A stretch of DNA of 64,000 bases from Stutzerimonas sp. S1. GTDB lineage: Bacteria; Pseudomonadota; Gammaproteobacteria; Pseudomonadales; Pseudomonadaceae. Location of the stretch: assembly GCF_025966695.1 (NCBI RefSeq), contig NZ_JAOEIY010000005.1, forward strand, positions 310,001 through 374,000. Reading direction: 5' to 3'. Below the pieces are notes generated by a model. That model searched no databases and had not been told where the DNA came from. It saw only the letters and a program-made list of their open reading frames with translations. This document shows, in pieces, positions 26,998-27,037 of this stretch. How positions within the stretch are numbered: the first letter of the stretch is position 1; each line of letters begins with the position of its first letter. The position numbers were made by a program, and so were the translations under genes.

Positions 26998-27037
26998 CCG
27001 TCATAAAGCTGTCATCGCGCTGGCCTATAACCGTCAT
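26998..27037 (+). promoter_or_regulatory. Pho box array and promoter of hemB-ppk1
   Basis: Four 7-base units at exact 11-base spacing: CCGTCAT (26998), CTGTCAT (27009), CTGGCCT (27020) and CCGTCAT (27031), compared with the PhoB consensus CTGTCAT separated by 4 bases. Units 1 and 2 form a near-perfect Pho box. Exactly 10 bases after it is TATAAC (27026-27031), a good -10 element, the spacing expected of PhoB-activated promoters. Transcription would start near 27038. Seen by eye; binding is not proven. Confidence 0.7.

Follow-up and report, generated by a model that had tools for sequence, protein, structure and literature searches.

The window analysed here, a 64,000-nt stretch of the genome of Stutzerimonas sp. 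S1, carries hemB (porphobilinogen synthase) followed on the same strand by ppk1 (polyphosphate kinase 1). NCBIfam assignments also confirm a convergent exopolyphosphatase-type gene and a divergent elbB at this locus. Upstream of hemB, four 7-mers resembling CTGTCAT lie in a register of exactly 11 nt, with 32 nt between the end of the array and the GTG start codon (Table 1). The first two form the direct dyad CCGTCAT-AAAG-CTGTCAT. An earlier note on this DNA had described four such units at perfect 11-base spacing, with hemB-ppk1 just downstream and a TATAAC -10 hexamer ten bases after the best pair; on both points the sequence is exactly as described.

Table 1. Features of the hemB-ppk1 locus (positions within the window; unit scores are matches to CTGTCAT)
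Feature	Position	Strand	Remark
Pho-box unit 1, CCGTCAT	26998..27004	+	6/7
Pho-box unit 2, CTGTCAT	27009..27015	+	7/7
Proposed unit 3, CTGGCCT	27020..27026	+	5/7
-10 hexamer, TATAAC	27026..27031	+	10 nt 3' of unit 2
Proposed unit 4, CCGTCAT	27031..27037	+	6/7; overlaps the -10, just 5' of the predicted start
Predicted transcription start	27038..27039	+	from distance to the -10
Short hairpin, GCCCG..CGGGC	27042..27056	+	leader, just 5' of GGAG; counterparts in many relatives; weak statistics
Ribosome-binding site, GGAG	27059..27062	+	invariant in 47-sequence alignment
hemB, porphobilinogen synthase, GTG start	27070..28083	+	NCBIfam
ppk1, polyphosphate kinase 1	28101..30302	+	NCBIfam; 17 nt 3' of hemB

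Promoter scanning of positions 26700-28300 returned no sigma-70 -35/-10 pair at the scan threshold. A ppk-specific Pho promoter inside hemB was considered and rejected, as no dyad of at least 11/14 occurs within hemB or in the hemB-ppk1 gap (27070-28101); weaker promoters, or promoters of another kind, could still lie there. A candidate basal hemB promoter, CTGGCA-18 nt-GACAAT (26939-26968), falls below the scan threshold and has loosely similar counterparts in 31/38 distinct upstream regions of the window's genus.

The dyad formed by units 1 and 2 (26998-27015) scores 13/14 and is the top Pho-type dyad of the window, shuffled sequences giving 0.075 sites of score 13 per 64 kb when both strands are counted. 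All four units together score 24/28, while the runner-up in the window scores 19 on the plus strand, the best on the minus strand 18, and the maximum among 60 first-order shuffles is 20. Throughout the 4.2-Mb genome, CTGTCAT-N4-CTGTCAT occurs three times with at most one mismatch (the hemB site among them) and 14 times with at most two, compared with two occurrences of a reversed control. Any genome contains many single half-sites, and chance repeats devoid of regulatory meaning might be proposed on that ground, but the shuffle results, together with the conservation described below, contradict this and leave it a negligible probability. The hemB site escapes the stricter patterns TGTCAY-N6-GTCAY and GTCAY-N6-GTCAY-N10-TANNNT, its unit 1 being CCGTCAT and its -10 having C as the last base.

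The genome encodes the regulator PhoB (TIGR02154, 357.5 bits; cut-off 296.2) and its own Pho promoters resemble the hemB site. The phoB promoter reads CTGTCACATCGCTGCAAT, 10 nt and TCTAAT (dyad 11/14), that of pstS reads CCGTAATCAGATTGTCAC, 10 nt and TAGAGT (10/14), and that of a PstS-like/OmpA gene reads CTGTCATATTTCAGTCAT, 10 nt and TAATCT (13/14). The arrangement seen at hemB, a dyad followed after 10 nt by a -10 hexamer, is common to all three. The window site also agrees with the PhoB motif of Pseudomonas aeruginosa as given by HT-SELEX, namely two GTCA(C/T) elements separated by 6 bp (in the part of PMC8041468 consulted), and with the motif from combined ChIP-seq and RNA-seq (in that of PMC4513871). 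The other two of the three genomic sites with at most one mismatch are the one just given for the PstS-like/OmpA gene, at C15:365423-365440 (L001), and a 13/14 Pho dyad at C17:200678-200695 (L002), which lies 5' of an EAL/GGDEF protein and suggests a possible link from phosphate to c-di-GMP.

Conservation in related genomes, which the earlier note had named as a check, was assessed for Pseudomonadaceae on the hemB upstream regions of 145 loci from 19 genera (133 distinct), taking the best dyad within 120 nt. Two of the 119 genomes, in which hemB had no match, and a duplicate locus of G016 were left out. Seven second hemB copies of approximately 44-45% identity, six of which were fetched, also stand outside the family counts; such a second hemB (~44% identity) occurs in some family genomes (L175-L180), no ppk being present in the stretch examined. 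The dyad 5' of hemB reaches at least 11/14 in 80/145 loci and at least 10/14 in 122/145, and for the promoter formed by units 1 and 2 the conservation check was passed. In the window's genus, all 41 loci fetched reach at least 11/14, each with a -10 of at least 4/6 at 10 nt, and in 13 of the 19 genera most loci reach at least 10/14 at this place. A score of 10 is weak by itself, being attained by about one in ten shuffled 315-nt windows, so the case for conservation rests on the fixed place and register of the dyad. Distances between GTCAY cores in the 133 distinct family upstreams cluster at three values: a spacing of 11 occurs in 59 upstreams (eight genera), 22 in 63 (ten genera) and 33 in 52 (eight genera). 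The next most frequent are 21 (18 upstreams, six genera) and 27 (nine upstreams, two genera), and all others occur at most twice. Among the best 80 named genomes, a set partly overlapping the family set, 58 reach 11 and 77 reach 10; bearers of the dyad include P. putida (12/14), P. mendocina, P. fluorescens and Azotobacter.

In several genera the dyad is weaker, displaced or absent. It is absent from g24, g28 and g34 (at most 8/14), weak in g39 (11/14 in 2/11 loci and at least 10 in 3/11), only 9-10/14 in g30, g31 and g33, and in g25 reaches 10/14 only at a different place. Genus g30, to which we take P. aeruginosa to belong, has 10/14 in 12/12 loci. Loss of PhoB was considered as a cause of the missing box and rejected: the regulator scores above cut-off in 115/119 family genomes (the four without it have completeness values of 76, 77, 87 and 93), including most genomes of the box-poor genera g24, g28, g34 and g39, and its loss therefore fails to explain the genera without a box.

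Units 3 and 4 behave differently from the dyad. Counts by unit were made on 110 family sites of at least 10/14 and on 30 Pho-type sites outside the family. A GTCA core is present at unit 1 in 61/110 and at unit 2 in 108/110 family sites. A true four-site PhoB array, the last unit of which might repress or tune the promoter from its place over the start, was the reading of the earlier note, and the exact register in the window as well as the GTCA at unit 4 (+33) in 67/110 family sites are in its favour. However, unit 3 attains 5/7 in only 5/110 family sites, and GTCA at unit 4 is found in just 1/30 sites outside the family. G008 and G009 retain the dyad but not unit 4, and L079 retains unit 4 but not the dyad; as the two are lost and kept separately, the four units do not evolve as one thing. 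The 134 distinct upstreams divide into 56 with both a dyad of at least 11 and GTCA near unit 4, 19 with the dyad alone, 25 with GTCA near unit 4 alone and 34 with neither. A functional four-unit array is very unlikely on these counts, and no result of the comparisons speaks for repression or modulation by unit 4. Unit 3 probably resembles a PhoB half-site only by chance, and unit 4 appears to be a separate feature of the family that more likely belongs to the start region. Since GTCA occurs at +22 in 5/30 outside sites, certain other promoters may possess a third unit.

Two further elements were observed around the promoter. The pairs of the leader hairpin vary between genera in a way that appears compensatory by eye (GCCCG/CGGGC, GCCTG/CAGGC, GACTC/GAGTC). 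RNAalifold gave no consensus structure for the hemB leader alignment, perhaps because loop length varies; in individual sequences, stems of at least five pairs are found in 141/151 leaders, only moderately above the approximately 64% of shuffles. Further upstream, an inverted repeat like TGCGAC-N5-GTCGCA is located some 10-20 bp 5' of unit 1 in other genera (for example at L087, L098 and L211), with a partial copy in the window at 26962-26976. It scores at least 9/12 in 64/134 distinct upstreams, compared with 14% of shuffles, and is clearest in g36, g23, g25 and g33; it may be a site or a stem.

The gene to which the box belongs was addressed by an order-wide comparison of 105 genomes, using upstream windows of 400 nt for ppk and 315 nt for hemB. 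Loci were classed as linked where ppk lies up to ~450 nt beyond hemB in the same orientation. Outside the family there were 35 of these, 34 of them usable. G235, in which a contig end cuts hemB, was left out. G224, G188 and G170 were counted as unlinked (both genes on one contig, 2.5-10 kb apart), as was G229, in which hemB ends near a contig edge. Left out were six genomes with unlinked ppk and ten with unlinked hemB. Shuffle expectations refer to 45 unlinked ppk and 34 unlinked hemB loci; the set was subsequently enlarged by two ppk and 20 hemB loci.

A dyad of at least 11/14 lies upstream of unlinked ppk in 19/47 loci (14/29 families), whereas upstream of unlinked hemB none was present at any of 54 loci (0/30 families). 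Fisher's test gives p = 4e-8 by locus and 6e-6 by family, the latter being the fairer value as the loci are related. The shuffle expectation at this score is 0.56 for the 45 unlinked ppk and 0.34 for the 34 unlinked hemB loci. At linked loci, the dyad is found before hemB in 7/34 and between hemB and ppk in 6/34 (L279, L324, L303, L327, L329, L330), in no case at both places; shuffles predict 0.55 and 0.37, respectively. No dyad of at least 11/14 was seen at 28/47 unlinked ppk and 21/34 linked loci. None of 200 permuted motifs reached the count observed at unlinked ppk (18/45), the best (12/45) being the motif itself in shifted form; with the spacing set to other values between 7 and 17, the count never exceeded four. 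Shifted motifs score high because they overlap the true one: TCTGTCA scores 12 versus 18 of 45 unlinked ppk loci and 53 versus 77 of 135 family upstreams. The controls at linked loci were less clean, with spacing 17 giving five loci in the hemB-ppk gap against six at spacing 11, and with one of 200 permuted motifs (GTCTCAT) equalling the seven observed before hemB. At 37 sites outside the family chosen by dyad only (in some cases several per locus), TANNNT stands exactly 10 nt downstream in 13, and at most four times at the other offsets tried. The window site shares the geometry of these independent sites.

These distributions suggest that across the order the Pho box follows ppk and not hemB, and a box belonging to hemB itself was rejected on the absence from all 54 unlinked hemB loci. 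The suggestion of the earlier note that porphobilinogen synthase comes under phosphate control would accordingly hold by virtue of operon position and not as a heme circuit. Under the latter, the box would have been selected for hemB too, with heme having to rise in phosphate starvation. Family loci with a box do have it before hemB, and so do the seven linked loci elsewhere, although the six others show that placement next to ppk is possible. Against this, no hemB without a following ppk carries the dyad and nothing, therefore, shows selection on hemB alone; we consider a heme-specific circuit unlikely. Because the box tracks ppk and is missing from unlinked hemB, hemB looks like a passenger.

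The interpretation we favour, at a probability of roughly 0.8, is that 26998-27031 is a PhoB-activated sigma-70 promoter selected for ppk1, with hemB the passenger of an old operon. That a PhoB-type promoter precedes hemB-ppk1, as the earlier note had it, is supported by the dyad and -10 conserved in relatives. The locus has the direct dyad of 11-nt period, a box in the place of a -35, a PhoB gene in the same genome and conservation in related genomes, as would be expected of a Pho regulon member. Under phosphate limitation, phosphorylated PhoB would bind head-to-tail on units 1 and 2. Standing in place of a -35 element, the PhoB dyad would bring RNA polymerase to TATAAC, and the predicted product is a single transcript in which hemB is followed 17 nt on by ppk1. 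The conserved target of selection would most likely be ppk1, while hemB, needed in high phosphate, must presumably also have basal, PhoB-independent expression. A further idea, that across much of Pseudomonadaceae phosphate starvation raises the essential hemB through the ppk promoter, physically coupling heme to polyphosphate supply under PhoB, and that this coupling, created by operon fusion, has been kept as useful, is rather unlikely.

Published data from a relative bear on this reading. In the proteome of P. putida BIRD-1, Ppk shows a log2 change of 1.34 in the wild type against 0.89 when phoBR is mutated, and it is listed among proteins unaffected by PhoBR (PMC5082522, Table 2 and the accompanying portion consulted). 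The hemB site of two P. putida genomes (L222, L251) has a 12/14 box. By analogy, the BIRD-1 result is counter-evidence to a PhoB-driven ppk; it may mean that in that strain the box is weak, that a basal promoter dominates or that the interpretation favoured here fails. It would also fit a constitutive promoter of the housekeeping gene hemB, the core of which happens to hold GTCAT repeats, with weak PhoB binding or none. Unit 2 reads GTCATAAT in many Pseudomonas and could itself serve as a -10 there. This is quite an unlikely alternative in view of the 11-nt ladder of GTCAY cores, the 10-nt distance to the -10 in a design shared with the genome's own phoB and pstS, and the box being found at unlinked ppk and not at unlinked hemB. 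Moreover, unit 2 of the window is without the AAT tail.

The locus tag PA5243 is presumably that of hemB in P. aeruginosa. Neither hemB nor PA5243 nor PA5242 is named in the main-text portions consulted of three P. aeruginosa Pho studies (PMC4513871, PMC9769906, PMC12186492), and the terms hemB and aminolevulinic are absent from the main text of PMC5082522. Among the papers within reach of the literature search, none was seen to place hemB in the Pho regulon. The new point is that, through operon structure, the Pho box of ppk precedes a heme gene; the type of promoter is ordinary. If this reading is correct, a rise of hemB is to be expected in phosphate-starved pseudomonads, a point to consider when interpreting Pho-regulon transcriptomes, and polyphosphate engineering in Stutzerimonas or Pseudomonas through this promoter would affect a heme-synthesis gene as well. 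The locus would likewise provide a clear case of a regulatory site following one gene through operon rearrangement: depending on the family, the box stands 5' of hemB, in the hemB-ppk gap or 5' of a solitary ppk.

According to the portion consulted of a review (PMC4415409), induction of Ppk serves phosphate storage in most bacteria. For P. aeruginosa, the portions consulted of later articles cite an altered expression of ppk and ppx on mutation of phoU (PMC12351708), as well as the adjacency of these two genes in opposite directions and a link between the Pho regulon and polyphosphate synthesis under spermine stress (cited in PMC12351708 and PMC6960187). The opposite arrangement of ppk and ppx is like that of the window, and the dyad is weaker in genus g30, at 10/14.

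The promoter of phoA in Escherichia coli (NC_000913.3) reads CTGTCATAAAGTTGTCAC, 10 nt and TATAGT. The window site is like it in having two 7-mers 11 nt apart with an AAAG spacer, followed after 10 nt by a TATA-type -10. Unlike phoA, which encodes a phosphatase, the first gene at the window site makes a heme precursor, and an additional GTCA motif overlaps the start region.

Control of ppk by the Pho system is known from Klebsiella and Acinetobacter. The window site would share with these the Pho control of polyphosphate kinase and differs from them in that its box lies one whole gene upstream, before hemB.
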